NCBI GenBank assembly: GCA_031286325.1
Contig: JAITUT010000087.1
Coordinates: 1-42,909 of the forward strand
Length of the DNA stretch: 42,909 bases
Reading direction: 5' to 3'
DNA from: Helicobacteraceae bacterium
Lineage (GTDB): Bacteria; Campylobacterota; Campylobacteria; Campylobacterales; SZUA-545
Positions within the stretch are counted from its first letter, which is position 1, and each line of letters opens with the position of its first letter. Below are positions 6,154-38,156 of the stretch, piece after piece. The notes below the pieces were generated by a model. It was given only the letters and a program-made list of their open reading frames with translations, had not been told where the DNA came from and did not search any database. Both the position numbers and the translations under genes were made by a program.

Positions 6154-6576
6154 GTGAAGATTACAAAGAGCCTAAACGCCGCTACCGCCGAGCGCGAGTG
6201 GTTGCTTATAGACGCCAAGGACCAGCCTTTTGGGCGGCTTATCGGCGAGATCGCGGTGAAACTTCGCGGCAAACACAAGCCCTCTTTCACGCCGCACATT
6301 GATTGCGGCGACTTCGTGGTGGTTATTAACGCCTCGCAAGTGAGCCTCTCGAAAGAGCACAAGCTTGACAAAGAATATCACCGCCACACGGGTTGGACGG
6401 GTCATGTCAAAAGCGAGCGCACGGGCGACTTGCTGGCGAAAAACCCCGAAAAACTATTCAAGCTCGCCGCGCGCGGAATGTTGCCCAAAACGCATTTGGG
6501 GCGCGAGCAACTCAAAAAATTGCGCGTCTATGTGGGCGCAGAGCACCCGCACACCGCGCAGATAAAGGTTAAATAA
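6154..6576 (+). CDS. rplM: 50S ribosomal protein L13
   Basis: L13, 140 residues, binds 23S rRNA early in 50S assembly. Family features are [22 protein letters not shown] at the N-terminus, YRHHTGW-like [12 protein letters not shown] near residue 80, and [18 protein letters not shown] near 115. It starts at GTG with AAGGAG six bases ahead. Its stop overlaps the rpsI start (TAATG), the usual rplM-rpsI pairing in bacteria. Confidence 0.98.
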
Positions 6577-6986
6577 TGGCAAAGAAACAAGCGTTAAAAT
6601 CCAAAATTTACGCCACAGGCAAGCGCAAAACCGCGATCGCGAAAGTCTATCTAGCGCCCGGCAACGGCAAAATGCTCATTAACGGGCTGAGCCTAGATAG
6701 CTGGCTCGGCGGGCACGAGGCGATCAAAATGCGCGTTTTGCAGCCTTTGCGCCTCACGAAACAAGAGCAAACCGTAGATATTATGGCGTCTACGATCGGC
6801 GGCGGCTACTCCGCGCAGGCGGACGCTTTGAGACACGGCATCAGCAAGGCGCTCTCGCTTTTTGAGGGCAACTTCCGCGCGATCTTAAAGCCGCACGGCT
6901 TGCTCACCCGCGATTCGCGCGTGGTTGAGCGCAAAAAATACGGCAAACACAAAGCGCGCCGCAGTCCGCAATTCAGCAAGAGATAA
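6576..6986 (+). CDS. rpsI: 30S ribosomal protein S9
   Basis: S9, 136 residues, sits in the 30S head with its basic C-terminal tail reaching the P-site tRNA. Seen are [15 protein letters not shown] at the N-terminus, [23 protein letters not shown] in the middle, and the invariant tail ending RRSPQFSKR. It is translationally coupled to rplM. The native GC-rich composition ends about 50 bases after this gene, where island 1 begins. Confidence 0.98.
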
Positions 6987-7041
6987 TCCGCGTTTTACTT
7001 CTCGCGGGGCGAAATCCTCGCGAGGACGGAAAGGAGACAAA

Positions 7042-7122
7042 ATGAAAAATTCAGAAAAAGAAAGATTGAAAATACAATTCGGAAAAATTTTTGCATCTTT
7101 GCGTTTTGGAATCGCAAAATGA
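7042..7122 (+). CDS. Short leader ORF (26 codons) coupled to the methyltransferase; leader-repeat copy A
   Basis: ATG at 7042 follows a strong AAAGGAG site and encodes MKNSEKERLK plus 16 more residues, then stops with an ATGA overlap with the methyltransferase start at 7119. The first ten residues match the leaders at 10225 (MKNEEKESLK), 28638 (MKTEEKERIL) and 29245 (MKNEKKERLK). I see no known domain. It could serve to load ribosomes for the next gene, or be the remnant of a gene start into which other genes were recombined. It is the first AT-rich DNA after rpsI and so marks the left edge of island 1. Confidence 0.55.
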   Translation: MKNSEKERLKIQFGKIFASLRFGIAK

Positions 7123-7892
7123 CGAATGAAAGAGAAAATATAAATGTAGATAGTCTTTGGTTGATTGACGAGCGAGACAAGAGCGGTAAACACGCGAATG
7201 TTTATCATGGCAATTTTATTCCGCAAATTCCCAATCAACTAATTCGCAGATACACAAAGGAAAATGATACGATTTTGGATTTGTTTATGGGTAGCGGCAC
7301 GACACTTTACGAATGCGAAAATTTGAACAGAAATTTCATAGGTTTTGACATAAATACCGAAATCATCGATTATGTGAAGTCAAAAATGACCGATACGCAA
7401 AATATCAAATTCAAAATAAACGAGTGCGATGTTGCAAACGAAACGCTTTTCAAAGAAAAAATCGAAAACTCTTTATCCGAATTAGACGTGGAAAAAGCGC
7501 AGTTAATTTTAGCGCACCCGCCCTATATGGACATTGTAAAGTTTACCGAAAAAGCGGAAGATTTGTCGCAAATTGCCGATTTGACGACCTTTGTAAAACA
7601 ATTTGCGCAAGTTGTTAAAAATGCGTTTCCGTATTTGGAAAATAAAAAATATTTGGGCGTTGTAATTGCTGATGTTTATAAAAAAAGCGAGGTTGTGCCG
7701 TTGGCTTTTTATGTGTTGGATGCGGTCAAACGCAATTTTAATGTAAAATTAAAAGGCATTATCATTAAAAATATAGAGGGAAACAGAGGTAAGTTGCGAC
7801 AAAAAAACATTTGGCAATATCGGGCGTTGAAAAGTGATTATTTTATCTTCAAACACGAATATATTTTGGTTTTTAAGAAAGAAGAAAGATGA
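7119..7892 (+). CDS. DNA methyltransferase of the N6/N4 (beta-type) family, R-M system
   Basis: A 257-residue amino-methyltransferase. The SAM-binding motif LDLFMGSGTTLYE lies at about residues 53-65 with GFDIN at 75-79. The catalytic motif IV is HPPY (133-136) in LILAHPPYMDIV, where most enzymes have DPPY or SPPY. HPPY variants occur in some type II N4-cytosine or N6-adenine enzymes, so the base methylated cannot be settled. It overlaps by four bases (ATGA) with the HNH nuclease gene, which overlaps in the same way with a second methyltransferase, so the three form one operon. AT-rich, no GCGATCGC: acquired DNA. Confidence 0.88.
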   Translation: MTNERENINVDSLWLIDERDKSGKHANVYHGNFIPQIPNQLIRRYTKENDTILDLFMGSGTTLYECENLNRNFIGFDINTEIIDYVKSKMTDTQNIKFKINECDVANETLFKEKIENSLSELDVEKAQLILAHPPYMDIVKFTEKAEDLSQIADLTTFVKQFAQVVKNAFPYLENKKYLGVVIADVYKKSEVVPLAFYVLDAVKRNFNVKLKGIIIKNIEGNRGKLRQKNIWQYRALKSDYFIFKHEYILVFKKEER

Positions 7893-8563
7893 CAAAAAAT
7901 CAATTATTTATAGAATTAGCAAAACCAGACGAAAATGGCGTAAGCCGTTGGGTTAATGTATCTGAATTTACAGGTAAATACGCCTCGCTTGTGTTTGGAA
8001 ACGGCGCGGATTGGGCAAGGCGAGACGGACAACTTGCAAAAAAGTACAACATAGAATTTGACAAAAGCATTTCCAAAGGCAATCGCAACGATAGAGTGAG
8101 ATTGAATGGCTTCAATACGAAAATTTCTTTTAATCAGAATATTAGAAAAGATATTAAAGACGCATTAAAAAGCCAAAATTGTGTGATGCTTGGCGTTAAT
8201 GGCAATTCCGCAAATGTAAAAATAGAAATAGACCATAAAGACGGAAGAAAAACCGATTTGAGCGTGTCAAAGAAAAGCACTCAAAAGATTGAAAACTTTC
8301 AGCCGCTTTGCAAAGCCGCAAATGATGTAAAACGACAAATTTGCAAGCATTGTAAGGAAACCGGCAAACGTTGGAATGCGAAAAATATCAAAGGAAATCC
8401 GTATGATTTTTATGACGGAAATGAAAATTACACACAAGAACTAGGTTGTGTGGGTTGCTATCAATACGATCCCGTCGAATATAGAAAATCAAGCGCGCGA
8501 AAAATTAGCAAAGAAATTTGCGACAATATTCTTAAAAAATTATATCCGGAAGATAATTTATGA
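7889..8563 (+). CDS. Predicted type II restriction endonuclease, HNH family
   Basis: A 224-residue protein between two DNA methyltransferases. It has an HNH/beta-beta-alpha-metal core: IEIDHKDGRK (Asp115-His116, Asp118) followed by NFQPLCKAANDVKRQ (Asn145 region) and paired cysteines CKHC (152-155) and GCVGC (about 192-195), which probably bind a structural zinc. The N-terminal part (ADWARRDGQLAKKY) may take part in DNA recognition. By position this is the cleaving partner of a restriction-modification system. The recognition site is not predictable from what I see. Four-base ATGA overlaps on both sides make the stoichiometry of nuclease and methylases tightly linked. Confidence 0.8.
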   Translation: MTKNQLFIELAKPDENGVSRWVNVSEFTGKYASLVFGNGADWARRDGQLAKKYNIEFDKSISKGNRNDRVRLNGFNTKISFNQNIRKDIKDALKSQNCVMLGVNGNSANVKIEIDHKDGRKTDLSVSKKSTQKIENFQPLCKAANDVKRQICKHCKETGKRWNAKNIKGNPYDFYDGNENYTQELGCVGCYQYDPVEYRKSSARKISKEICDNILKKLYPEDNL

Positions 8564-9567
8564 ATTACATCGGCTCAAAACACAAATTGTCAAACTTCAT
8601 AAAATCGACCGTTTATGCAGTGGTTGGCGAGGATTTATCGGACAAAATTTTCTGCGATATTTTTGCGGGAACAGGTATTGTAGGGCGAAATTTTAAGACT
8701 GAGGCAAAAAAGATAATCGCCAATGATTGTGAATATTATAGTTATGTTTTGAACAAAAACTACATTGAAAATCATACGGAAATTCCAAACAAACAAGATT
8801 TTATTGATGAATTAAACAATCTTCCGCTGGCTGAAAACGGATTTATTTACAAAAATTATTGCGTTGGCGGGAATGGCAAAAGACAATATTTCTCCGACTA
8901 CAATGGTAAGAAAATTGATACGATAAGACAAAAGATTGAAGAATGGAAAAACGAAAATAAAATTTCGTCAAACCTTTATTTTTTTCTTCTCGCAAGCCTT
9001 TTGGAGTGCGCGGACAAAGTCGCGAATACGGCTTCGGTTTATGGCGCATACCTCAAACATTTGAAAAAATCCGCTGAAAAAGAATTGATTTTGCAATCCG
9101 CAATTTATGATCTTAATGACCGTAACCATGAAGTTTTTAACGCCGATAGTAATATTTTGATTTCACAAATTGTGGGCGATATTCTTTATTTAGACCCGCC
9201 TTATAATGCTCGTCAGTATGGCGCAAACTATCACTTACTCAATACAATAGCAAAATACGACAATTTCGTCCCAAAAGGAAAAACAGGAATGCGAGAATAC
9301 GCAAAGTCAAATTATTGCAGTTCTACGAAAGTTCTCATAGAGTTTGATAACCTGATAAAAAACGCGCATTTTCAATATATTTTTCTTTCGTATAATAACG
9401 AAGGTTTGATGTCGGTTGAAAATCTGAAAAAAATAATGCAAAAGTATGGTAAATATGATTTAGCGGAAATTGATTATCAGCGTTTCAAAGCCGATAAAAC
9501 GGAAAATAGAAACCATAAAGCCGACAAAACAAAAGAGTCTTTGCATATTTTAGAAAAGAGATTGTGA
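8560..9567 (+). CDS. D12-class N6-adenine DNA methyltransferase
   Basis: A 335-residue methyltransferase of the Dam/M.FokI (D12) class. It opens MNYIGSKHKL, has motif I DIFAGTGIVGRNF (33-45) and catalytic motif IV LDPPYNARQYGANYH (DPPY at 212-215). N6-adenine is the expected product. Together with the HPPY methyltransferase and the HNH nuclease upstream it forms a three-gene system. Two methyltransferases for one nuclease is the pattern seen where the recognition site is asymmetric and each strand needs its own enzyme. The KADKTENRNHKADKT stretch near the C-terminus contains a short internal repeat. Confidence 0.9.
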   Translation: MNYIGSKHKLSNFIKSTVYAVVGEDLSDKIFCDIFAGTGIVGRNFKTEAKKIIANDCEYYSYVLNKNYIENHTEIPNKQDFIDELNNLPLAENGFIYKNYCVGGNGKRQYFSDYNGKKIDTIRQKIEEWKNENKISSNLYFFLLASLLECADKVANTASVYGAYLKHLKKSAEKELILQSAIYDLNDRNHEVFNADSNILISQIVGDILYLDPPYNARQYGANYHLLNTIAKYDNFVPKGKTGMREYAKSNYCSSTKVLIEFDNLIKNAHFQYIFLSYNNEGLMSVENLKKIMQKYGKYDLAEIDYQRFKADKTENRNHKADKTKESLHILEKRL

Positions 9568-9647
9568 AATTGAAAAGCTGTCGCCTATTTTGAGGTTTTA
9601 TTTTCAGAGACAAGTTAATAGAAATTTGAAAAGAAAAAAGAGTAAAA

Positions 9648-9709
9648 TAAAACCGCAATGAAAAACGAAAAATAAAGAAAGTTTGAAAATGAACGCGGAG
9701 GCGACGAAA
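9648..9709 (+). repeat. Leader repeat copy B (62 bases)
   Basis: This segment begins TAAAACCGCAATG and ends GCGGAGGCGACGAAA. It matches copy C at 10215-10275 nearly base for base; a one-base insertion and one or two substitutions in the A-rich part are the only differences. The insertion puts a stop into the leader (MKNEK then TAA). A second mini-frame (MNAEATKNDKY) then runs past the start of the next gene. GGAGG in the repeat serves as ribosome site for the ATG at 9711. Preceding bases GTAAAATAAA also match copy D at 29229. Confidence 0.85.
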
Positions 9710-9710
9710 A

Positions 9711-10217
9711 ATGATAAATATTGAAAGTTACATAATAAAAGACAAAAAAATAAAGATTGCCGATATTGATAATATAGATAAAGATTTATTTGTCAATGTT
9801 AAAGACTATAAACTGCTTAACGCAAAGAATTTAGATTATGATTATTTAGAAGGCTCAATTGTAGTAAACTATAATGGGCAAGAATATCTTGAATTAAAAG
9901 ATTGGGATTTGATAGAACAACTTTGGGGTTATTTTGTCATTGCTATTAAAGACTTGAAACAAAAAGATACGGTTGCATTCCAATTTCCGGACTGTCCGTT
10001 TGCGATTAGCATTGAAAAAAAGCGTCATAACCGTTTGATAGTTCTATTTCACGACAAAAGAATGAATATAGATTTAGCCGAATTTGTTTTTGGTATCCTT
10101 AACGCGGCAGAGTCATTTTATGAAAATCTCAAACAATTATTCGTCGCTCGCGAATGGGAAATTAATGAAGAAATAGAAAATATACAAAATATAAAAAATC
10201 TATGGTCTGTGAAGTAA
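9711..10217 (+). CDS. Hypothetical protein, immunity-like cassette gene
   Basis: A 168-residue soluble acidic protein I do not recognise. It is preceded by GGAGG from leader repeat B. Its stop TAA (10215-10217) forms the first bases of leader repeat C, so the gene is bracketed by two near-identical 61-62 base direct repeats. No signal peptide, membrane span or catalytic motif is visible. Small, acidic, single-domain proteins in such tandem settings are often immunity proteins for polymorphic toxins, but no toxin gene is seen here and the role is an inference. AT-rich and free of GCGATCGC. Confidence 0.65.
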   Translation: MINIESYIIKDKKIKIADIDNIDKDLFVNVKDYKLLNAKNLDYDYLEGSIVVNYNGQEYLELKDWDLIEQLWGYFVIAIKDLKQKDTVAFQFPDCPFAISIEKKRHNRLIVLFHDKRMNIDLAEFVFGILNAAESFYENLKQLFVAREWEINEEIENIQNIKNLWSVK

Positions 10218-10275
10218 AACCGCAATGAAAAACGAAGAAAAAGAAAGTTTGAAAATGAACGCGGAGGCGACGAAA
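10215..10275 (+). repeat. Leader repeat copy C (61 bases)
   Basis: Direct repeat of 9648-9709, beginning TAAAACCGCAATG and ending GCGGAGGCGACGAAA. Here the leader frame is intact and reads MKNEEKESLKMNAEATK straight into the following gene. Recombination between copies B and C would remove the gene at 9711 exactly and leave one leader. Confidence 0.85.
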
Positions 10276-10821
10276 TTACAACTTTCCTCGAATAGAAGTA
10301 TAAATTGGCTTCTCGGCGGACCTTATTACGAGGTAAGTTTTTTGTTGCTAAATCAATGCGATAATGAAATAGGATTGATTAGTCTTATAGATAAATTCGG
10401 TTCGTTGAATTATAAAATAGAAATATATGACGGCAACAGTTTGGAAAATCAAATAAAATCATTCTTTGACAAGGCTGTAGCGAAAATTGAATTGAATGTT
10501 TTTATAAATATATGCGGGAAACAACGTTCAAAGATTTATATTGAGCGGTTGTCCGATGAAATATTGGAAATAGATTTTTGTTTTTTAGAAGAAAATGTTA
10601 ATAAAAACAAGATGAAAAAATTAAAATATTTGTTGAATGATTTAATGAAATTATACGACGGAATTGTAGGAGTGATCGCCGTTGAAACAGATTGTAGTAT
10701 GATATTTTTTGAAACGAAAGAACCATATCCGCATAAAGATTATTCGCTAAAAAAAATAAAACATTTCACTAATGAAGAAATTAAAAATATGAGCGGGATC
10801 GAAGAAATAATATGGAAATAA
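10225..10821 (+). CDS. Hypothetical protein with leader-repeat N-terminus, immunity-like
   Basis: A 198-residue protein without recognised domain. The first 17 residues (MKNEEKESLKMNAEATK) come from leader repeat C; the unique part begins at LQLSSNRSINWLLGG. The start could be the ATG at 10225 or the in-frame ATG at 10255; neither has a strong ribosome site, and GGAGG inside the repeat lies after both. The body is mixed alpha/beta, with aromatic-rich segments and no signal peptide. It is the last AT-rich gene of island 1. A role as an immunity protein is an inference from size, acidity and cassette context. Confidence 0.6.
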   Translation: MKNEEKESLKMNAEATKLQLSSNRSINWLLGGPYYEVSFLLLNQCDNEIGLISLIDKFGSLNYKIEIYDGNSLENQIKSFFDKAVAKIELNVFINICGKQRSKIYIERLSDEILEIDFCFLEENVNKNKMKKLKYLLNDLMKLYDGIVGVIAVETDCSMIFFETKEPYPHKDYSLKKIKHFTNEEIKNMSGIEEIIWK

Positions 10822-10977: not shown

Positions 10978-11427
10978 ATGGCGGATTTTGTAGAAATTTT
11001 CAAGGGCGCGATTAAGCCCGAAGCGGTTTTGGCGCGCTGGTATGGCGAGGCAACGGACAATCACACGGGCGCGTTCGCTAGCTTTATCGGTATTGTGCGC
11101 GATGAGGGCGGCATTTCCGCGCTCTCGTTCGACATCTACCGCCCGCTTCTTGATCGCTGGTTTATAGGCTGGCAAAACAGGGTGGCGGCGAAAGAGGCGC
11201 GGCTCTTTATGGCGCATTCCGAGGGCGACGTGCCGATCGCTTGTTGCTCGTATGTCGCGGCGATCGCGTCGCCAAAACGGCGCGCCGCGCTTGAATTTTT
11301 GGACGAATTTGTAGAGGATTTCAAGCAAAGCGCGCCGATCTGGAAATACGATGTGATCAGAGGAAAGCGCGTTTATGCGGAAGATCGCTCGCGTCTGTTA
11401 AACGGCGCGGGGCTTTTGGGCGTTTAA
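10978..11427 (+). CDS. moaE: Molybdopterin synthase catalytic subunit
   Basis: MoaE, 149 residues, the large subunit of molybdopterin synthase, which inserts sulfur carried by MoaD into cyclic pyranopterin. Family marks are GAFASFIGIVRDEGG near residue 31, the middle VPIACCSYVAAIASPKRRAALEF, and the C-terminal APIWKYDVIRGKRVY with the active-site Lys of IWK. The usual histidine-arginine pair before RAAL is KR here. MoaD is not adjacent. The stop is immediately followed by the ATG of the HIT gene, so the two are probably co-transcribed. Confidence 0.9.
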   Translation: MADFVEIFKGAIKPEAVLARWYGEATDNHTGAFASFIGIVRDEGGISALSFDIYRPLLDRWFIGWQNRVAAKEARLFMAHSEGDVPIACCSYVAAIASPKRRAALEFLDEFVEDFKQSAPIWKYDVIRGKRVYAEDRSRLLNGAGLLGV

Positions 11428-11919
11428 ATGCAATATTTTTACGCGCCTTGGCGCAGCGAATATCACACTAATAAAGATAAATCAAAGTGCGTATTTTGCG
11501 ATATTTCGCAAACGCCAGAAAAAGACCGCGAGAATAAGGTGCTTTTTCGAGATGAAATTTGCTTTATAGTAATGAATCTTTACCCGTATAACCCAGGGCA
11601 TTTTATGGTCGTTCCGCATAGGCATTTAGAGGCTTTGGAGGATTTGCCGCCAAATGAGTGGCAACATATTGCTAATTTAGCGCAAAAAGGCGTGAAATTA
11701 TTGAAAGAAGAATTTCGCGCTCAAGGCGTTAATATCGGTATGAATTTAGGCGCTGTGGCGGGCGCAGGGATTAGCGATCATATTCATTTGCATTTAATTC
11801 CGCGATTTTTCGGCGATACGAACTTTATTACCACGATCGCTAAATCGCGCGTTTTCGGATCGGATTTTTGCGCGATCTACGAGAAACTTTTAGCGAAATC
11901 AAGCGAATATTTCGGTTAA
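11428..11919 (+). CDS. HIT-family nucleotide-binding hydrolase
   Basis: A 163-residue histidine-triad protein. The triad is DHIHLHLIPRF with His118, His120 and His122, and CVFC (21-24) forms the zinc pair common in the family. Such proteins hydrolyse or transfer nucleotide phosphoramidates or dinucleoside polyphosphates (Hint, Fhit or AP4A phosphorylase types); the true substrate cannot be told. It begins directly after the moaE stop and is followed by a strong terminator. Confidence 0.93.
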   Translation: MQYFYAPWRSEYHTNKDKSKCVFCDISQTPEKDRENKVLFRDEICFIVMNLYPYNPGHFMVVPHRHLEALEDLPPNEWQHIANLAQKGVKLLKEEFRAQGVNIGMNLGAVAGAGISDHIHLHLIPRFFGDTNFITTIAKSRVFGSDFCAIYEKLLAKSSEYFG

Positions 11920-24956: not shown

Positions 24957-26048
24957 ATGTTTAGAGCGGAGTTGGAGAAAATCGTCAGTTACGAGGCGGG
25001 CAAGCCTATTGAGCTGGTCGCGCGCGATTACGGCGTGGCGGCGAGCGATGTCGTAAAGCTTGCAAGCAATGAAAATCCCTTTGGCGCAAGCGAAAAAGTG
25101 CGCGCGAAACTCGCGGCGATCGTAAATCAAACGCATCGCTATCCCGATGATAGTTATTTCGCGTTAAAAGCCGCGATCGCGAATAAATATAATATGAATT
25201 CCAAAAATATAATAATCGGCAGCGGAAGCGATCAAATTTTTGAATTTATTTCACACGTGATCTTAGAGCGCGGCGACATTGTTCTGCAAAACAAAATTGA
25301 TTTCGCGATGTATGCGATCTATACCGCGCAAGCGGGCGGCGAAACTCTGCGCGCGGAAAGCGAAATTCACGATCTAAACGAATTTGAAAAATTGCTTGCT
25401 AAAGATCCAAAAATAATTTACCTTTGCACCCCTGCAAACCCGCTTGGAAACGCGATGGATCGCGATGAAATATATAAATTTTTGCCAAAAGTAAATCAAA
25501 ATTCATTAGTCGTAATTGACGCGGCGTATATGGAGTTCGCGGCGTATAAAGACGCGAAAAAACATATTGAACCAAGAGATGTAACTGAAAAATTTCCGAA
25601 TGTAATTTACACCGGCACATTTTCAAAAGCTTACGGGCTCGGAGGTATGCGCGTGGGTTACGGGATCGCAAATGAAAAGATCATTAAAGAATTGCACAAA
25701 ATGCGCGCGCCGTTTAATATAACAACATTAAGTTTAGCCGCCGCGATCGAAGCGATCGGCGATCAGGAATTTGTGCAAAAAACTATTACCCATAATTTCG
25801 CCGAAATGGAGAAATACGAAAAGTTCGCGCGCGATCGCAAAATAAAATATATTGAAAGTTACACGAATTTCATCACGTTCTTTTTTGACAGGCAAAACGA
25901 GGCGAGCGAGATCGCGCAAAAACTGCTGAAAAATGGAATGATCGTACGCGATCTGAAAAGTTACGGATTAAACGCGATTAGAGTAACGATAGGGCTTGAA
26001 GCCGAAAACGCGAAGTTTATGAAACTATTTGACGAAGCGAGGCGATAG
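24957..26048 (+). CDS. hisC: Histidinol-phosphate aminotransferase
   Basis: A 363-residue class II aminotransferase, PLP-dependent, for histidine synthesis (imidazole-acetol phosphate to histidinol phosphate); it may also act on aromatic 2-oxo acids. It shows LASNENPFGAS (34-45), the TPANPLGNAMD loop, and the PLP lysine in TFSKAYGLGGMRVGYG (Lys224). Length and order are normal. Its TAG overlaps the GTG of fliF (TAGTG). The hisC-fliF order is also found in Campylobacter. Confidence 0.95.
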   Translation: MFRAELEKIVSYEAGKPIELVARDYGVAASDVVKLASNENPFGASEKVRAKLAAIVNQTHRYPDDSYFALKAAIANKYNMNSKNIIIGSGSDQIFEFISHVILERGDIVLQNKIDFAMYAIYTAQAGGETLRAESEIHDLNEFEKLLAKDPKIIYLCTPANPLGNAMDRDEIYKFLPKVNQNSLVVIDAAYMEFAAYKDAKKHIEPRDVTEKFPNVIYTGTFSKAYGLGGMRVGYGIANEKIIKELHKMRAPFNITTLSLAAAIEAIGDQEFVQKTITHNFAEMEKYEKFARDRKIKYIESYTNFITFFFDRQNEASEIAQKLLKNGMIVRDLKSYGLNAIRVTIGLEAENAKFMKLFDEARR

Positions 26049-27745
26049 TGGATTTAAACGCCCTCTTAAAACAACTCACGTTGCTGACGCGCAAGTTCAA
26101 CAAGAAGCAGAAAGCGGTGATTATCGCCTCTATGATCGCGGTCGTGGCGCTGATAGCGTTTCTCATCATCTATGCCAGCCCGCGCAACTACGACGACGGC
26201 TACCGCGCGTTATTTCGCGACCTTTCGCCCAAAGACGCTGGCGTTATCGTCCAACAGCTTGAAACGCAGGGCGTTAAATTCAAAATTCCCGAGGAGGGGA
26301 CGATTAGCGTCCTAAAAGATCAGGCGGATCGCGTGCGGTTAAATCTCGCCGCGCAAGGGATTCCGCAGAGCGGGCGACCAGGGTTTGAAATTTTTGATAA
26401 ACAGGAGTTCGGCGCGACCGACTTTGACCAGCAAGTCAAGTTTCTTAGGGCTTTGGAGGGCGAGTTATCCGCCACGATCGAGAGCCTCGAAAGCGTCAAA
26501 TCCGCGAAAGTTCATATCGCGATCCCCAAAGACACGGTTTTTGTGAGCAGGCAAGTACCGCCAACCGCGAGCGCGGTGATCTCTTTTAAAGACGGAATGC
26601 ACATTAACCGCCACCAAATTCTGGGCATTAAAAACCTAATATCAAGCGCGGTGCCGAAACTAACTATTGAGAATGTGCGTTTGACGGACGCGGAGGGGGT
26701 GCCGCTCGGCGAAGAGGACGCGCTGACGACCGCAGGCGAAGTTGCGCGCGATCAGCTCAAATTCAAGCGCGAGCACGAACGCCTTTACGAGACAAAAATC
26801 ACCGAAATGCTCGGGCAATTTCTGGGCGGGCAGGACAAAGTCGTAGCGCGGGTAACGATAGAGTTTGACTTTTCGCAGCGCAACTCGCACCAAGTAGTCT
26901 ATGACCCGAACAATGTGCCGCGTTCCGAGCAAAGTATGGAGTATAAGCGCGAGGGAAGCCGTCCGCGCGAGATCGGCGGCGTGCCGGGCGCGGTCAGCAA
27001 TATCGGACCCGTGCAGGGTTTGGAGGACGATCGCCTACTCGAAAAAGAGCAAAAGAGCGAAAACACCGTTAATTACGAAGTTTCCAGCAAAACAAGCGAG
27101 ATCAAAGGCGAATTTGCCACGATCAACCGCATTACGGCGGCGGTCGCGGTAGATGGTCGCTACAAGAAGCCCAAAGGGGACGGCGCGGCGGCGAACGCCG
27201 AAGAAGAATATGTGCCGCTCGCGGCGCAGGAGCTAGAGGCGATCTCAAGCCTTGTGAAACAGGCGATCGGCTACAACCCAGAGCGCAAGGACGAAGTTTC
27301 GGTGAGCAACTTTGAGTTTGGCAGGGGGCGCGCCAAAGCGGAGGATTTGAGCTGGGTCGCGAAGTATCTCTTGCCCGCAATGCCCGCGCTCAAATACATC
27401 TTCGCGGCGCTGATGTTGTTGGTTTTCTATAAAAAAATCATCAAGCCTTTCACCGATAAGATGATGGAATTGCCCACGCAAGACGAAGAGGAAGAGGTCA
27501 AGAAAATCGACTTTGAACTTGACGAGGAGGAGGACGATTCCGATCGCCTCAAAGAGTTGCGCGAGCGCGTAGAGGCGCAACTTGGCTTGGGAGACGGCGC
27601 GGACGAGGCGAAACTCAAATACGACTTGCTTTTGGAGCGCCTCCGCGCCGCCTGCGATGAGAGGCCGAAAGATATCGCGCAACTTTTATCTACCCTCGTG
27701 AGCGATGAAGTAATACGCGAATCGGCGCGCGGTTCGAAACTCTGA
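26048..27745 (+). CDS. fliF: Flagellar MS-ring protein FliF
   Basis: FliF, 565 residues, forms the MS ring in the inner membrane, base of the flagellar motor. Membrane spans at about 25-44 and 440-460; between them the ring-building motifs including YRALFRDLSPKDAGVIVQQLE and the conserved KVHIAIP and FDKQEFGATDF. The acidic tail (EEEEVKKIDFELDEEEDD and on) binds FliG. Start is GTG overlapping hisC. In Campylobacter fliG and fliH follow; here an AT-rich cassette begins three bases after the stop, so the rotor gene fliG has been displaced or moved. Confidence 0.96.
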   Translation: MDLNALLKQLTLLTRKFNKKQKAVIIASMIAVVALIAFLIIYASPRNYDDGYRALFRDLSPKDAGVIVQQLETQGVKFKIPEEGTISVLKDQADRVRLNLAAQGIPQSGRPGFEIFDKQEFGATDFDQQVKFLRALEGELSATIESLESVKSAKVHIAIPKDTVFVSRQVPPTASAVISFKDGMHINRHQILGIKNLISSAVPKLTIENVRLTDAEGVPLGEEDALTTAGEVARDQLKFKREHERLYETKITEMLGQFLGGQDKVVARVTIEFDFSQRNSHQVVYDPNNVPRSEQSMEYKREGSRPREIGGVPGAVSNIGPVQGLEDDRLLEKEQKSENTVNYEVSSKTSEIKGEFATINRITAAVAVDGRYKKPKGDGAAANAEEEYVPLAAQELEAISSLVKQAIGYNPERKDEVSVSNFEFGRGRAKAEDLSWVAKYLLPAMPALKYIFAALMLLVFYKKIIKPFTDKMMELPTQDEEEEVKKIDFELDEEEDDSDRLKELRERVEAQLGLGDGADEAKLKYDLLLERLRAACDERPKDIAQLLSTLVSDEVIRESARGSKL

Positions 27746-28110: not shown

Positions 28111-28632
28111 ATGAAAAAACAGGAATCATATCAAAATATAAACATTATGAATGAAAATTTGAAAATATTGTTAGAAGGGTTAAGAAAAGCGAGAGAAAAG
28201 TACGGCGATTCTCCTCAAAAGCCCGCGACCAGCAAAGAAGTTGAAAAATTAAATAAGGCCGTAATGGAGAATTTTAACATTGAATTGAGTCCCGTCTATA
28301 AGTCTATTTTATTAAAAACGAACGGGTTTAATGAAAATGGCGTTTTTCTATATGGAAGCGAAACTAATTTGATAGCGGGTTATTCAGACCGATACCTCGA
28401 AGGCATTATGGAAGCAAATGAAATTTGGCGCGAAGACGACGATTTTTCTAATTATCTTTTTTACGCCGAATCCGATTTGTATTTGTTTGCGCAATCTTTG
28501 AAAGACCAACTGTATTCGTGCCGAGCAAGAGATAGTTTTGACGATGTAATTTTTGAAACAAACGACGATAATGATTTTTTTGAGAAAATTTTTAAGCTAG
28601 CATTTGATGATGAATTTCATATGGAAGATTAA
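28111..28632 (+). CDS. SMI1/KNR4 (SUKH) family protein, YrhA-like
   Basis: A 173-residue protein of the SUKH superfamily. The core is ILLEGLRKAREKYGDS, then ELSPVYKSILLKTNGFNENGVFLYG, matching the SMI1/KNR4 pattern (P-x-x-Y/L ... LLxTNG ... LYG), and the acidic C-terminus. Bacterial SUKH proteins are known immunity proteins against polymorphic toxins. No toxin is adjacent, so it would be an orphan. GTAAAATCAAAATG before the start resembles the cassette-junction pattern. Alternative starts are internal ATGs at codon 13 (MNENLK). Confidence 0.85.
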   Translation: MKKQESYQNINIMNENLKILLEGLRKAREKYGDSPQKPATSKEVEKLNKAVMENFNIELSPVYKSILLKTNGFNENGVFLYGSETNLIAGYSDRYLEGIMEANEIWREDDDFSNYLFYAESDLYLFAQSLKDQLYSCRARDSFDDVIFETNDDNDFFEKIFKLAFDDEFHMED

Positions 28633-28660
28633 TCACAATGAAAACCGAAGAAAAAGAAAG
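28630..28660 (+). repeat. Leader repeat copy E
   Basis: TAATCACAATG then AAAACCGAAGAAAAAGAAAG. From CACAATG on it matches copy C (10222-10248) at 25 of 27 bases counted by hand. The TAA is the stop of the SUKH gene, and the ATG at 28638 opens the next gene with MKTEEKER. Confidence 0.75.
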
Positions 28661-29237
28661 AATATTGCTACAAATAGGTTGGCTTACAAATATAGAAACC
28701 GAATATATTCTGCCAAAAACACAGGAAGAAATAACGCAATTGAAACAGCAGAAAACCGAATATATCCATAATATGTTCAAAACAGGAGTTATGTTTTTGC
28801 AGAAAAAAGGATTAACTGCCAGAACAATTTTAGGGAAAAATGACATTGTAAACGATGAATCAAAACTCACGCTTGGAGATTTAACCGAAGACGGATTTAG
28901 ATTTTATCAAATAGGCGTTACCAAGTGGATAGAAAAATTAGACCGCAGTATAAACAGAATGAAAATAGTTACAGATACTTCTTTTCTTGAGAAAAAATAT
29001 CAGGAATATGTAAATTATGAATTGCTGTTTTTCAAGAAACTTTTAGTTGAAATAAAGGACGATAGAAAAAAACTTGAAAACAAAAAGAAACTCGCGCCGC
29101 TTATTGAGAAAGTAATTTCGGAGTTAGACGGAAATATAAAAGATTTTTTCACCACAAGAAGTAAAAAAGCAACGATTGACCTTATGTATTCGTTATGTTA
29201 TGGCTATTTCCACGTTTTTCCCCGTATGGTAAAATAA
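28638..29237 (+). CDS. Hypothetical helical protein with leader-repeat N-terminus
   Basis: 199 residues, mostly helical and charged, beginning MKTEEKER from leader copy E. Lys-rich stretches (EIKDDRKKLENKKKLAP) and a C-terminal YSLCYGYFHVFPRMVK. No known domain is recognised and no membrane span. Its stop codon (29235-29237) is the first codon of leader repeat D. Immunity-like by context only. Confidence 0.6.
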   Translation: MKTEEKERILLQIGWLTNIETEYILPKTQEEITQLKQQKTEYIHNMFKTGVMFLQKKGLTARTILGKNDIVNDESKLTLGDLTEDGFRFYQIGVTKWIEKLDRSINRMKIVTDTSFLEKKYQEYVNYELLFFKKLLVEIKDDRKKLENKKKLAPLIEKVISELDGNIKDFFTTRSKKATIDLMYSLCYGYFHVFPRMVK

Positions 29238-29277
29238 AGCCGCAATGAAAAACGAAAAAAAAGAAAGGTTAAAATGA
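29235..29277 (+). repeat. Leader repeat copy D
   Basis: TAAAGCCGCAATG then AAAAACGAAAAAAAAGAAAGG, matching copies B and C apart from small changes and one deleted base. The leader frame is MKNEKKERLK then TGA, which overlaps the ATG at 29274 as ATGA. The preceding GTAAAA also matches the bases before copy B. Confidence 0.8.
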
Positions 29278-29936
29278 ATAAGAAAATAGAAGCGAAAGAC
29301 AAAAGACAAATTACAAAAGATTGGTTATCTTGCTTCCCAGAATTTAGAGAGTAGAAACCGATGCGCTTGATACGAAGAAACGGCGCTTTTTTATGTGGTA
29401 TTCTTCTCGAAAGATACTCATCGAACACTTACTATAAGCCTATTTTTCACATTCATAATTTAATGATTAATGACGATTCTCTTTCTATGTCATTAGGAGC
29501 AGTAACTTATCTATTGAATAACAAGGGGGCAAGCGACAGCGTAAGTCTTTTTCAGCATAAAGAAAATTTAATCAACTAAGCGGAACGCTTAAAACAGCAA
29601 GTTTTTCTTCTTCAAAAAAATATGATTAGTTGCGATGAACTTGTATCTTATATAAAAACACATTGTTCTGATTTTCAAGCGTATGATTTTCAAAATATAC
29701 CGCTTGCGTTGTTTTGGTGCGGTAAAGAAGCAGAAGCCGAAAAAGAACTTGAAAACGCAAAAAAAATAATATCGCAATGGGACGATAGCGTATGGGTAAT
29801 AAGACATCTTGGAGTAGAAGGTTGGGAACAGCAGGTAAGGCAACTAATGAATATGGATATATTAAAGGCTAATGTGGAAAGGCAGTTGCAAAAATATAAG
29901 TTAGAAAGTTTTAGCGATTTTCAATTGATACGTTAA
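29274..29936 (+). pseudogene. Immunity-like gene broken by two in-frame stop codons
   Basis: One continuous frame of 220 codons from ATG 29274 to TAA 29934-29936 is interrupted by TAG at 29352-29354 and TAA at 29577-29579. The three pieces read smoothly together: DWLSCFPEFRE / KPMRLIRRNGAFLCGILLERY / AERLKQQVFLLQKNMISCDELV. No frameshift is needed. The tail FWCGKEAEAEKELENAKKIISQW looks like proteins I have seen associated with toxin-immunity loci, but I cannot name the family. The leader D ATGA-coupled start is intact. Its end abuts the truncated integrase gene. Confidence 0.7.
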
Positions 29937-30268
29937 GATTTAAGAAGTTTAGATAAATGCTTAGTTCTATATATGTCGTTTCTTGTGTTTCGCTTAGTAG
30001 AGGCATTATCAAGATACAGTTTTACAATATCGCTAAATAGCAGAGATTTTTTCTGTGTTGGTATTTCACCGTGTCTTAATAGATGTAGTTTTTCATTTCT
30101 TAAGTCTCTACAATATGCTTCCCTGATACCTGATGAATAAGTCCCAACCCTCTCTAGAACTTGTCTTTTGCCTATACGATATTTAATGTAGTAAGTGGTC
30201 TCTCCGTCCGCTGATTTGCGCTTATACACCCCAGCAACGCTGGTCTTTACAAGGTTTGTAGCGTTCAT
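29933..30268 (-). pseudogene. Truncated tyrosine recombinase (phage/island integrase), N-terminal part
   Basis: MNATNLVKTSVAGVYKRKSADGETTYYIKYRIGKRQVLERVG and onward is the N-terminal arm-binding part of Campylobacterota island integrases. It ends after 111 residues at HLSKLLKS. The catalytic domain (R-H-R-H-Y) is absent, so it cannot be active. The gene starts 42 bases past the 3' end of tRNA-Arg, the usual place for an island integrase. I start it at the ATG at 30268; the open frame extends 13 codons upstream but only over tandem repeats. Its end overlaps the 3' end of the immunity-like pseudogene, a likely deletion junction. Confidence 0.75.
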
Positions 30269-30310: not shown

Positions 30311-30383
30311 CGCGCTCGGAGGGACTCGAACCCCCGACTTACGGAACCGGAATCCGTCGTTCTATCCACTGAACTACGAGCGC
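30311..30383 (-). tRNA. tRNA-Arg (anticodon CCG)
   Basis: The minus strand folds as a full cloverleaf: acceptor GCGCTCG pairing with CGAGCGC, D arm GTTC-AGTGGATA-GAAC, anticodon arm ACGGA-TTCCGGT-TCCGT with CCG in the loop, and T arm GGGGG-TTCGAGT-CCCTC, with G as discriminator. CCA is not encoded. Reads CGG. It lies at the right edge of island 2 and is probably the attachment site for the truncated integrase. Confidence 0.95.
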
Positions 30384-33289: not shown

Positions 33290-35686
33290 TTACCTAATTA
33301 GCGTAATCAGCCAAAAGAAGAAAAACGCCACGATCAAAATCATCGCGCTGTAAATTATCTCCGTAATGCGCGAAAACGAAAAAATCCGCGCGAAAAGCGA
33401 CTTTTTCTCGCCCTTTTCTCCCTCTTTTTTAGGTTCGTCCGTCTCTTTGGGCTTTTGCGAAACCGCCGTCTCGCCCGTTAAATTCACAAACGCCAAAACC
33501 TCTTTCGGCAAACCCAACTGATGATAACCCGGCTTTGACGCGAGAAAGTAAGCGAAACTATTTAACAGTTCGCCCTCGCCTTGCGCGTCGTAAGCTAAAT
33601 CAAGTAGCGGATCGCGCCCGAAATAATCGGTGTAATTGTGCGCCGTGTGCAACCAATCAAGCGCGCCCGAAACATTGATCCGCCGCATATGCTCGGTGTA
33701 TGCGACCCGCAAAACATTCGCCGCGTAAGAGTCAAAGAGCCTAAAATCGTTGTATTTATCCAAGAGCAACCTCGCCGCCTCCGAATCGCCCTCAATCGCC
33801 GCCGCCCACGCGCGCGCAAAGTGGCGTTCGATTTCCGAAAAAAGCGCGCGAAATTGCGGCGTGTCCGTCAAAAACGGGTAACGATCCACGATCGCCAACG
33901 CGCCCTCTAAACGCAAACGTTTCGCCGCCTCCGCGAATGTCTGACACGCCGCGACCTCATCGTGTATCGCGGGCGAGACGCCTAGCTCAATTAGTAGCTC
34001 CGCCGCCCTAAAAGACTCCATATAAAGGCAGTTGTCGGCGCAAAAGATCATCTCGTTTTCCAGAGCCGCTATGCGCGCCGCGAAGATCGCGTAATGCGGC
34101 AACCCTTTGCACGCCGACTCCGCCTCGCAATAATCGTAAAACGCGTGCCATTCCGCTTCGCTAAACAACTTCGCCGCCTTGATAAACTTCTGCGGATCGC
34201 TTAAGATCGCCGCCGCGATCTCGCCTTTTTCACCGGCGTTTTTGAAGTCCGCGAGCGCGGTTTCCGCCTCGCTGGCCGCGCTGTTTTCAAGCCTCTGCAA
34301 CGCCTGATTCACGGCGTTTTCCCACTCGGTAAAAAATAATTTGCCCGAAACCGAATCTTTGAGCGCGGGATTTGCGACTAGCAACGTTTCCGCGCTCTTT
34401 AAGTCGCGGTTTTTCATCGCTTTTCGAAGCTCAAGCAACTCCGTATGGCGGCGCAAAAGCTCTTCAAATTCGCCTCGCCTAGCTATGTCTTCGCTCCACG
34501 CCGAAACTAAGTCGCGCGCCAAATCAATGTGCCCGTCCTCCAAATAACTCACGACGCGCGGGAGCGCGTTCTCTTCCCAAGCAGAATCAAGTTTTTCGCA
34601 AAAATCCTCGTTGAGCAAAGCGAAGCCGCTCTGCGCCACGAGCGCGTTCGCCGCCGCGTAATCTTCGGTCTCTAAGGATAGCTCCAACGCTTCGTTCAGT
34701 GATCGCAGGTTAAAGCAGGCGATCCTCTTTTCGCCCAGAGCCAGCGCGTAATCGCCGCTTAAAAATAGGTACGTAATGTTGTCGTCAATGGATTTCCACG
34801 ATCGCGCGATACGTTCGTGGCGCATATCGTAAGCCGCCAAAATCCCTTTTTGCGAGCCGATGAAAGCGAATCTCTCGTCCGTAAAAGCCGCGTTCGGCGC
34901 GACTTTTGCCACGTGCAGCTTGTCTATATCCTTGCCGCGCGCGTGGAATGAGACCGTAGTCGCCTCGCCTTCGGAGGAAAATAATAGGAGTTTGCCGTTT
35001 TTGCAGAAAACGCCGCCTACGATCTCGCGGTTTAACTCAAACTCAAAGATAATTTTGCGCAGTAATAGGTCAAAAACGACCGCGCTTTTGTCGCTATCGG
35101 CGACGAATAAATAACGTCTGTCGTCCGCCACGCCGCTGATTTGCTGCTCAGTTGTAGGTTTTTGTTGCTCCGCCGCGGGTTTGGGCGCGGCTTGCTCAAA
35201 AGCTTTGACGCCGCTGGTCGCTAATCCAACGGGTCTTTCGCGATCACTTAAACCCGAGCCGCCGCCGAAAAAAAGCGCGGTGGGTTTTTTGAATCTCTTT
35301 TCGGCGATCGCGTAATAGACGCGCTCGCAGTCTGAAAATATCTGCAAAAACCCCTCGCGATCTATCGCGGCGAAGTGATCGCCCCCCTGATCTATCGCGG
35401 CTTTCACAATAGGATTTTTGCTCAAAACCACTCTTCCGGGCTCTAAATTACCGTCAATTGAAAAGAAATAAGCCGCGTCCGCCGCGACTACGATCGCCTC
35501 GCCGGAGGGCTTGATTTTGGCGGCGAGCGAACCTTTCGCGAAGTCCAGCGAAGTGAGAGCCGCAGGCTCTTTTTTATCTTTCTCAAATACCGCTTTACTG
35601 CCGTCCGCGCCGATCGCGTAAAGTTTATCGGCGATCAACGCCGCCGCTATAGGCGCATCCAAATCATATAATGAAAACCAGCCCAA
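33290..35686 (-). CDS. Large tail-anchored protein with propeller-like N-terminus and helical solenoid
   Basis: 798 residues. The first roughly 320 residues are repeated beta-strand units with WD40/propeller character (for example DRRYLFVADSDKSAVVFDLLLRKIIFEF and AAYDMRHERIARSWKSIDDNITYLFLSGDYALAL). From about 330 to 730 the chain is a run of helix pairs like an alpha-solenoid. A basic, charged linker (KPKETDEPKKEGEKGEKK) precedes a single C-terminal span (about 773-795), ending ITLIR; no signal peptide. The cytoplasmic domain would thus be held by a tail anchor. The propeller-plus-solenoid layout recalls membrane-coat proteins of eukaryotes and PVC bacteria, but I cannot name a family and convergence is likely. 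Confidence 0.7.
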   Translation of the reverse strand: MGWFSLYDLDAPIAAALIADKLYAIGADGSKAVFEKDKKEPAALTSLDFAKGSLAAKIKPSGEAIVVAADAAYFFSIDGNLEPGRVVLSKNPIVKAAIDQGGDHFAAIDREGFLQIFSDCERVYYAIAEKRFKKPTALFFGGGSGLSDRERPVGLATSGVKAFEQAAPKPAAEQQKPTTEQQISGVADDRRYLFVADSDKSAVVFDLLLRKIIFEFELNREIVGGVFCKNGKLLLFSSEGEATTVSFHARGKDIDKLHVAKVAPNAAFTDERFAFIGSQKGILAAYDMRHERIARSWKSIDDNITYLFLSGDYALALGEKRIACFNLRSLNEALELSLETEDYAAANALVAQSGFALLNEDFCEKLDSAWEENALPRVVSYLEDGHIDLARDLVSAWSEDIARRGEFEELLRRHTELLELRKAMKNRDLKSAETLLVANPALKDSVSGKLFFTEWENAVNQALQRLENSAASEAETALADFKNAGEKGEIAAAILSDPQKFIKAAKLFSEAEWHAFYDYCEAESACKGLPHYAIFAARIAALENEMIFCADNCLYMESFRAAELLIELGVSPAIHDEVAACQTFAEAAKRLRLEGALAIVDRYPFLTDTPQFRALFSEIERHFARAWAAAIEGDSEAARLLLDKYNDFRLFDSYAANVLRVAYTEHMRRINVSGALDWLHTAHNYTDYFGRDPLLDLAYDAQGEGELLNSFAYFLASKPGYHQLGLPKEVLAFVNLTGETAVSQKPKETDEPKKEGEKGEKKSLFARIFSFSRITEIIYSAMILIVAFFFFWLITLIR

Positions 35687-36185
35687 CCGCCGCCCCTTAA
35701 AGCTTTTTCATTGTCCGCAACTTGGACATAAGCATAACAGATCGCGGCTTATTCGCGGCTTTTCGCGCTTATTGGGCAAGATCGCGCGGCAAAACAAACG
35801 ATATGAAAAATATAATCTTGAAGCGAAAAAGCGCGATATTTTTATGCGGCGCGGAAAGGATTGCATCGTCTCGCCCAAGCTAGTGTTCGCGTATGTATTT
35901 AATCGGGTAATTTTGATGAATTAACTTATAAATTTATTAGAGACAACCGCATATACGCAATTCGTCCCTATTGCGGCGGGGAACACGGAAAATTTGCGTT
36001 TTATGTGTTTTCTGAAAATTTGGACGTTTTTTAGTTTGGCGCAAGAACTGACCGCAGAAAATTTTAATCTCATATCCCGCTCGTCATTACGTAAATTGCC
36101 GCGTGCGTAGGCGACAGATCGCGGCGAAACAAACGCCCGCGCCTTACTAATCGCCGCAAGATTCTAAGCGGCGCGAAAAATCGCT
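35687..36185. other. Gene-poor stretch with a possible gene relic
   Basis: About 500 bases without a convincing gene. A frame at roughly 35915-36035 reads FDELTYKFIRDNRIYAIRPY and on to FAFYVFSENLDVF, is locally AT-rich, lacks a start codon and is preceded by a stop. It may be the remnant of an acquired gene. GC-rich DNA flanks it. No RNA gene or terminator seen. Confidence 0.4.
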
Positions 36186-38156
36186 TTATTCCAGTCTGCC
36201 GTCTTTGGCGATCTTTAACGGTTGCGGCATATTGGCGTTTAATTTGACCATACATTCGTTTTCGTAGTAGAAACAACCCTCTTGCATAGCCTTGTTCAGC
36301 GCCGCGATCTCATTCTCGCCTCCGCCCTCGCAAACCACCTCGCCCCTCCAAGCGTTCATCGGCGCAAACCCGCTCCCGCTGGCGAAACTTAATTTGAGCA
36401 ACTTGCCTTTCCAGCCGCCATTGCCGAACTTCAGCTTTGAGCCCGCGTGCAAAGTAACCAAATCAAGTTGCGTGTTTCCTGAAAGCTCGGCGAAATTGCC
36501 GCCCGCGTATAGATCGCCGCCCGTGTTTTCCACGATTTTACCGCCGTCCAAATAGACTTTGCCAAGCGAGTAGATCGCGCTGCGCGGGGCAAAATTATGC
36601 GCGATCTCGCCGCCTTGCATACGAAATTCGCCCTCCGATCCGATATGCAAAACGCTAGTCGCGTTAGCTCGGTTGCCCGTGATTTTGATGTGATTTTTGA
36701 TATTCAGCGAGCCGCTTTGGACAGAAATTAACGGGCTCTGCGCCACGCCGCCGTTAAGCGTCAAGTTGCCGTCCAAAATTAACTTCGCCTCGGAATGGCG
36801 CAAGGTTATAAGCGGCTCCGCGCGGTTTTGACGTTTTATTATCTTCGCGGGATCGCCCGCGCCTTTGATCGTTATAACGCGCGCGTTTTCAATTATAATA
36901 GGCGCGGATTCGGCGTTCGTGAGAACTTCAATCCTGTCGCCGCTTAGAGCTTTGTTCGCCGCGCTTAAAAGATCGTTTTCGGCGAAACTTGCTTTGATCG
37001 CGCCGTCGCTACCTACGATCCTGATTGGAAACCTGAAAAATCCGTTGTTATCCAGCCCATAGCCGCTGATTTTCAAGGCGTTAGCGGGCTTGTGCGCGGT
37101 GAATACGCCGCCCGGGTGAATTTTGCGCGGCGAAAAACCCGTGAAAAATTGCTGATCGCGCATTAGTTTTTTTGCCTCGTCCAGCGCATCATCGTCTCCT
37201 AACAAATTCGCCGATCTGACAAGCCCGCTCCAATTGCTATCCGCCGCGACTTTCGCGACCTCGCCCTTGCGCGCGGCAAGGGTCAAAAAGCCGATTAACG
37301 CGTCGCCGCCGACTCTCGCCGCGCCTTTTTCCACATACAGATCGCCGTATTTGTTGTTTTCGATTTTGCCGCCCGTCATCGCGAAGTCTCCGCCGTAGCT
37401 GCAGACCGCGCCGCGAGCGGGATCGCGGCTGCCCGTTGAGTTGCCCACGATCAAGCCGCCCGTCATTTTGAACGCGCCGCCGTCTTTGATCGCTACCGCC
37501 GAGCAACTTTCGTTTCTTGCAATATTGCCGGTAATTTTCGCGCCCCGCGTCATTACAAACGCGCCTCCCGCCACAAAAACAAGCGAGTGTTCGGAGTTTT
37601 TTCTACCCACGAGACTGATGTTTCCCTTAAGCGAAAGCTCGCCCTTTTCGGCGATCCTGAACATATACCCGTTTTTGTCGATCGCGATCTGCCGCTCCGC
37701 GCCCACGCCGATTAGCGCGATTTTTTTTACGATCCAATCGCTCTCCGCGCTGGGCGGCAAAATCGCCTTTGAATACAAATAAACATTTAAGCCGTTCTCA
37801 TTTTTAGGGCAATTTTGCGGCTTTTTGCCGTTCGCGCAATCAAGCGCGTCTTTTAGTTTGGCAAAGTACGCGCCGATCCACTCTGCGCGCAATACGAGAT
37901 CGCCCTTTACGGGTTTCGCGAAATCGTATGGTTTGCCGTCCGCGTCATTCAGCCACCGCGCGAATTTGGGTTCGCTCGCGCCCACAAAAAAGCCGCCCTT
38001 TAACATACCGATCGTAGGGTCTTTGGGGCACTCCAAAATTTCGCCGTCGTTAATGTGCCGCTCGGATTTCATACCCTCCGCGCCGCCGTAGAAAAATGTG
38101 ATTTTCGCCGCGAAGAGATCGCAGGCGATAATCAGCGCAAGCAATAATTTATTCAT
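36186..38156 (-). CDS. Secreted protein with InlB-type B-repeat and beta-helix repeats
   Basis: 656 residues. Signal peptide MNKLLLALIIACDLFAA, then an InlB-type (Listeria-Bacteroides) repeat (about 18-93) with ITFFYGGAEGM, GFFVGASEP and KPVKGDLVLRAEW. Two blocks of parallel beta-helix repeats follow: GGAFVMTRGAKITGNIARN and GGAFKMTGGLIVGNSTG (about 195-245), and LTLNGGVAQSPLISVQ with NIKNHIKITGNRA and MQGGEIAHNF (about 470-560). There is no LPXTG or autotransporter barrel, so export beyond the periplasm is uncertain. Probably an adhesin-like or glycan-binding protein. It is minus strand, upstream of purE in order. Confidence 0.7.
   Translation of the reverse strand: MNKLLLALIIACDLFAAKITFFYGGAEGMKSERHINDGEILECPKDPTIGMLKGGFFVGASEPKFARWLNDADGKPYDFAKPVKGDLVLRAEWIGAYFAKLKDALDCANGKKPQNCPKNENGLNVYLYSKAILPPSAESDWIVKKIALIGVGAERQIAIDKNGYMFRIAEKGELSLKGNISLVGRKNSEHSLVFVAGGAFVMTRGAKITGNIARNESCSAVAIKDGGAFKMTGGLIVGNSTGSRDPARGAVCSYGGDFAMTGGKIENNKYGDLYVEKGAARVGGDALIGFLTLAARKGEVAKVAADSNWSGLVRSANLLGDDDALDEAKKLMRDQQFFTGFSPRKIHPGGVFTAHKPANALKISGYGLDNNGFFRFPIRIVGSDGAIKASFAENDLLSAANKALSGDRIEVLTNAESAPIIIENARVITIKGAGDPAKIIKRQNRAEPLITLRHSEAKLILDGNLTLNGGVAQSPLISVQSGSLNIKNHIKITGNRANATSVLHIGSEGEFRMQGGEIAHNFAPRSAIYSLGKVYLDGGKIVENTGGDLYAGGNFAELSGNTQLDLVTLHAGSKLKFGNGGWKGKLLKLSFASGSGFAPMNAWRGEVVCEGGGENEIAALNKAMQEGCFYYENECMVKLNANMPQPLKIAKDGRLE

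Follow-up and report, generated by a model that had tools for sequence, protein, structure and literature searches.

A repeated leader sequence at candidate orphan immunity and defence islands of a Helicobacteraceae bacterium

In a Helicobacteraceae bacterium, a small gene at 9711-10217 (+ strand) of a 42,909-nucleotide contig lies between two repeats. The original prediction described these repeats as exact, and the gene as a cassette ready for excision. The question raised by this locus is whether the repeats set this one gene apart or belong to a more general arrangement. The window, as used below, is the whole of this contig (C37 of assembly G000).

The repeat pair around the gene at 9711-10217

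The repeats are real. Alignment of 9648-9710 with 10215-10275 yields near-identical copies that differ by one A/G substitution and one extra T in copy 1, so that "exact" is too strong a term for them, and the longest gap-free identical runs between the copies are ~22 and 36 nucleotides. As predicted, the stop codon of the gene lies at a repeat edge, its TAA (10215-10217) falling within copy 2. In shuffled windows, the core pattern of the repeat has an expectation of 0.00 occurrences per window, and the best E value for copy 2 elsewhere in the genome is 4.8e-18. A search of G000 with the stretch gave 40 matches, all of which, except the self-match, are the repeat.

Both repeats belong to a longer element of ~90 nucleotides, here termed the leader. 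Leader copy 1 (9642-9710, +), which corresponds to the "leader B" repeat of the original prediction, carries stops in three frames, an ATG at 9658, the core, and a GGAGG. Its leader ORF is frame-broken by the inserted T and encodes the peptide MKNEK followed by a stop; the gene behind it must therefore start at its own ATG, 9 nucleotides past the GGAGG of the leader. Directly upstream, at 9617-9641 (+), is a module (U, AATAGAAATTTGAAAAGAAAA) that occurs 5' of several leaders. Leader copy 2 (10209-10295, +) is intact and includes most of the 3' hairpin. Its ATG at 10225 starts the next ORF, with which it is in frame, and the N-terminus of the encoded protein is MKNEEKESLKMNAEATK...

The gene between the repeats (P0002) encodes a protein of 168 amino acids that belongs to no family, and a search of 399 other genomes of the order gave no homologue. 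From its context, it is probably an immunity-type gene. The next gene (P0001; 10225-10821, +) encodes 198 amino acids, with a leader-encoded N-terminus fused in frame, and likewise has no family. One weak match was found for this protein, and its C-terminal 26 residues occur alone, as a remnant, at C47:846-923. Single-sequence AlphaFold models of the two proteins have mean pLDDT values of 40 and 35, respectively, too poor for use.

A simulated crossover between copies 1 and 2 removes one unit and leaves a leader with the 10225 ORF in frame. The view of the gene as a leader-plus-gene cassette holds, and its excision via the flanking repeats is possible. What is not supported is its special status as "ready for excision", since every neighbouring leader pair in the ~20 islands described below is equally so and no recombinase is linked. 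Flanking repeats such as those of 9711-10217 are normal for members of an array. The same-genus genomes are unusable as alleles with and without the gene, because they contain no leader match and P0002 has no match in the order.

Distribution and anatomy of the leader

Using BLAST and HMM searches of the genome's own assembly, we found ~40 clear leader copies on 18 of 96 contigs, with the consensus ATAAAATAAAACCGCAATGAAAAACGAAGAAAAAGAAAGTTTGAAAATRAACACAGAGGCGACTGAGGGACAAACGCAGCCGAACGGGG. The count varies slightly with the definition: 40 copies are clear, 39 rows reach E <= 1e-3 with the full-length model, and 48 are obtained when weak copies are included. G000 (2.05 Mb, 96 contigs) is the one genome of its species that was analysed and is fragmented. 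Many arrays stop at contig ends (the overlap between C59 and C86, for example, is 119 nucleotides), and the reading of the genome was confined to stretches around leader copies.

No leader match at E <= 0.001 was obtained in six same-genus genomes or in 33 genomes of the same family or order. The exact leader pattern does not occur in the GTDB r220 contigs, from which near-identical records may be left out, or in IMG/VR, where we also found no match to the hairpin (H) or to P0002. The leader peptide has no match among plasmid records. A phage or plasmid origin of the leader was considered and rejected, given that the IMG/VR and plasmid searches were without matches. The SUKH genes of the same-genus genomes show no common 5' element that would represent an alternative leader. 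As judged from these sequence comparisons, the leader is species-specific.

The 5' edge of the leader (ATAAAATAAAACCGCAATGA) contains the stop codons TAA, TAA and TGA, one per forward frame, and the TGA overlaps the ATG. Stops in three frames within 20 nucleotides are present in 18 of 36 ATGA-bearing copies versus a background of 3.1% for ATGA sites in that DNA, although the copies share descent and such counts are not independent events. At least 17 of 42 upstream ORFs (~90-600 codons) terminate in the leader, between -18 and +1 of the ATG, including sucC and the 603-codon frame of a SulP permease. By inspection, the leader is fused in frame to the following gene in ~22 of 40 copies. Leaders that are out of frame encode a short ORF that ends ahead of the gene's own ATG. 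Relative to the consensus, pN/pS is 0.74 for in-frame copies and 0.79 for the others. The similarity of these values in and out of frame points to conservation of the DNA, with little selection on the peptide.

The 3' part of the leader forms a predicted hairpin, which is absent from many copies. Across 18 copies, we counted 18 cells with changes in both members of a base pair versus 11.6 +/- 2.3 in shuffled alignments (0 of 500 shuffles reach 18), and slid controls gave at most 10. The reverse complement of this hairpin occurs 5' of a few leaders (C65:4757, C45:33985 and C84:5636). The joints are ragged on both sides of the leader. A covarying hairpin would be superfluous for a purely translational role, which hints at a further function.

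Islands and the genes behind the leader

Nearly all leader copies precede a small ORF, and the genes concerned are mutually unrelated. Their products include members of the Pfam families Imm9, Imm12, Imm22, Imm26, SUKH, ankyrin, pentapeptide, TPR and HEAT, as well as FGE-like proteins and a pyrimidine dimer glycosylase. Elsewhere in the leader islands are Imm17, DUF7716, DUF7832, D12 methylases, and an IceA restriction-modification set. Many array genes, including those at 9711 and 10225, have no family, so the label "immunity" rests on their neighbours. Orphan immunity and defence islands are the reading that fits these arrays best. A search for a VipB-type T6SS in this genome was negative. 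On the minus strand of C45 (~35100-36467; L009:7033-8468), a gene for a UlaG-like protein of metallo-beta-lactamase fold is fused through a leader to a small HEAT-like gene, with no stop from the former via the leader into the latter.

The islands, about 20 in number, are small and dispersed, and they lie between housekeeping genes. Two are present in the window, where we found three leader copies besides the 9642/10209 pair, with matches at about 7041-7074, 28632-28660 and 29233-29279. In the first, the host gene rpsI (ribosomal protein S9; 6576-6986, +) is followed by a degenerate leader copy at 7026-7074 (+; MKNSEKERLK), a weak match with an HMM E value of 0.62. Behind this copy is an IceA-type restriction-modification set consisting of an N4/N6 methylase, IceA and a D12 methylase (7119-9567, +), and the repeat pair belongs to the same island. 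On the 3' side the host genes resume with moaE and HIT-family genes (10978-11919, +). The second island lies behind fliF (26048-27745) and carries a SUKH-type gene (28111-28632, +), whose E value of 5e-4 is under the Pfam cut-off. A leader copy at 28622-28667 (+) is in frame with the ORF at 28638-29237, and the preceding ORF terminates within it. Another copy, at 29229-29279 (+), precedes a frame-disrupted paralogue of the gene at C28:9182-9880. Farther along, at 29933-30268 (-) and 30311-30383 (-), an N-terminal piece of an integrase of prophage type adjoins a tRNA gene and represents the remnant of an integrated element; by eye, this piece matches an intact integrase on contig C51 (L058).

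Other island neighbours are sucC and genes for a SulP permease, DJ-1, and nth-like and fusA-like proteins; apart from rpsI, fliF, SulP and DJ-1, these names were read from the sequence. A clean empty-site comparison is offered by sucC/sucD, the gene order at rpsI and moaE/HIT being too variable between species. The sucC stop and sucD start overlap in the relatives G001, G003 and G006 and are 1 nucleotide apart in G004 and G005, and in G002 a different gene is found there. In the leader-bearing genome, the sucC stop is formed by the ATGA of a leader, and the array then begins. At the moaE site, three genes of no known function separate moaE from the HIT gene in G005, a species of the same genus (contig C50; L105:5228-7404), with no leader, and the two genes are adjacent in G004.

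Proposed recombination between leaders and competing explanations

We propose, with a probability of roughly 0.55, that the leader is a species-specific translational header that precedes orphan genes of immunity and defence obtained from elsewhere, and that the units it heads are shuffled by recombination between leaders. The leader would serve as a translational adaptor that terminates any incoming frame and restarts translation, and a unit placed behind a transcribed housekeeping gene would need no promoter. Because all leader copies are alike, leader-plus-gene units would be expected to recombine. Homologous recombination between such leaders could duplicate, swap or delete units, of which the gene at 9711-10217 would be one, with chromosomal copies or DNA taken up from conspecifics as partners, and the immunity repertoire would be reshuffled as an outcome. 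If this is true, acquired genes would need no promoter for expression at almost any location, and their reshuffling would require no dedicated recombinase linked to them. The leader arrays would then bear on how bacteria assemble and rearrange orphan immunity collections.

Several comparisons between islands are consistent with this proposal. The homology between C28:9182-9892 and C37:29233-29936 extends from the leader start through the gene stop and no farther, and the same gene has different upstream genes in C28 and C37. C32 and C52 have an upstream gene and leader in common and differ in their downstream genes, while C47 and C52 share the gene behind the leader and differ upstream. Block edges lie within 30 nucleotides of a leader edge in 15 of 25 cases versus 3.1 expected, an excess that is partly circular in that leaders prolong homology. 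Some leaders (C59:288, C30:26065 and C23:81) are followed by no gene or by a gene fragment only. Together with the remnant at C47:846-923, such leaders are signs of past loss and exchange. Adjoining the solo leader C30:26065 is a 498-nucleotide inverted duplication (C30:24161-24655 and 25357-25851; 91% identical) that flanks a resolvase-like gene.

Homologous recombination fails to explain leaders at sites that were leader-less, such as the sucC-sucD joint. The ragged joints suggest that genes were first joined to leaders illegitimately or through microhomology, with deletion as a later step. An alternative is a site-specific cassette system resembling an integron or rAID (described below), in which units would be moved by an unlinked recombinase that acts on the leader or its terminal hairpin. 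In its favour are the extent of the unit in the C28/C37 pair, from leader through gene stop, the preservation of hairpin structure more than sequence, the inverted hairpin 5' of some leaders, the species-specificity of the repeat, and a content of orphan immunity genes that rAID shares (PMC12247911). However, a PF00589 search of the genome gave hits on C44, C40, C51, C75, C9 and C4 only, and these six, two of them Xer-like, the others prophage-like and one partial, are all off the leader contigs. Moreover, the joints are not at a single base at either end of the leader, the islands are dispersed rather than forming one array, and the hairpin ends (GTTAG...CTAAC) have the reverse of the attC order. 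We consider such a system unlikely. Similarly doubtful is an integrase-unlinked cassette system that would put a species-specific folded-end header on freshly acquired immunity and defence genes and install them at housekeeping stop/start junctions, with the header acting as both stop-and-restart adaptor and recombination site. A linked integrase or integron was rejected, the leader contigs being without a PF00589 hit, and an unlinked IntI is unlikely from the same search, which used the PF00589 model.

The inverted hairpins also recall a MITE-like element (H ... H') inserted beside genes, with copies near immunity genes kept by selection. The hairpins 5' of C65:4757, C45:33985 and C84:5636 would provide inverted ends (CCCGTTMGGC / GCCKAACGGG); inverted hairpins flank the core in a few copies only. 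All copies found are on island contigs, nearly all face an array gene or its remnant, none was free-standing or in reverse orientation, and gene order switches at leaders, which together make this origin quite improbable. We give similarly little credence to a cis-acting RNA leader that controls the whole immunity set post-transcriptionally, with recombination as an incidental effect. The covarying 3' hairpin does adjoin a GGGG/GGAGG segment and conservation is at the nucleotide rather than the protein level, yet many copies lack the hairpin and an RNA role alone does not account for the breaks at leaders. A known RNA family was rejected: at the gathering threshold, Rfam finds none in the window except one tRNA. 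Least credible of all, and hardly worth entertaining, is a useful N-terminal peptide, such as a targeting or stability tag, encoded by the leader for immunity proteins. The in-frame fusions would favour it, but pN/pS is ~0.75 and equal in and out of frame, and many copies, including that at 9642, have stops and frameshifts. A conserved peptide tag was rejected on these two grounds.

The proposed shuffling of leader-headed units has parallels in known systems. In recombinase-associated acquired interbacterial defence (rAID) of Bacteroidales, short orphan immunity genes, including SUKH, are co-oriented with a conserved motif between them, and the mechanism of rAID biogenesis is described by its authors as an area of active research (PMC12247911). 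The arrays reported here are likewise co-oriented, with Imm9, Imm12, Imm17, Imm22, Imm26, SUKH and similar genes, and the leader before most array genes resembles the rAID intergenic motif, though it is partly coding. Unlike rAID, the arrays have no linked tyrosine recombinase, form ~20 small islands behind housekeeping genes rather than one cluster, and have a leader that supplies the following gene with its start codon and initial codons; their host probably also belongs to a different phylum. Among plasmid records, the flagellin of this genome is nearest to that of Campylobacter jejuni (54%), which, with the IceA gene, suggests a place in Campylobacterota; a genome scan with the UvrD-like helicase gave a single distant hit. 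In tandem paralogues of T7SS immunity genes (esaG and tipC), short conserved in-gene blocks are substrates for homologous recombination, through which the sets expand and contract (PMC9484751). As in esaG arrays, the breakpoints found here are at shared blocks (the 15 of 25 edges versus 3.1 expected, a partly circular count). However, esaG and tipC are paralogues of one family, and the leader block is common to unrelated Pfam families. With neither the linked recombinase of rAID nor the single family of esaG, the leader arrays are a variant rather than a member of these kinds.

Chromosomal integrons and superintegrons hold many unrelated small genes with species-specific folded attC sites. These sites have the order RYYYAAC ... 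GTTRRRY, with folded arms, and lie at the 3' end of each gene. The leader arrays similarly combine many unrelated small genes with a species-specific folded repeat for each. In contrast to integrons, they have no linked integron integrase and no single array led by attI, and the leader lies 5' of the gene, includes its start codon and, by inspection, has a hairpin whose arms are arranged in reverse relative to attC. On a same-genus contig (G001:C75; L041:76-1290, 2201-2263), SUKH and LRR-like genes are separated by a repeat of ~300 nucleotides with attC-like ends (TATAACACGCCTGTTTACG ... CGTAAACAGCCGGAACGTTATG) that resembles integron cassettes; this contig may be a contaminant. In the leader-bearing genome, a second short island module with an attC-like end (ACAATATTTTTACCTTTGAGACGTTATAC) occurs at C5:8049-8120, C45:12953-12998, C7:140-169 and C7:3474-3503, and may be a vestige of integron cassettes from which some of the genes came.
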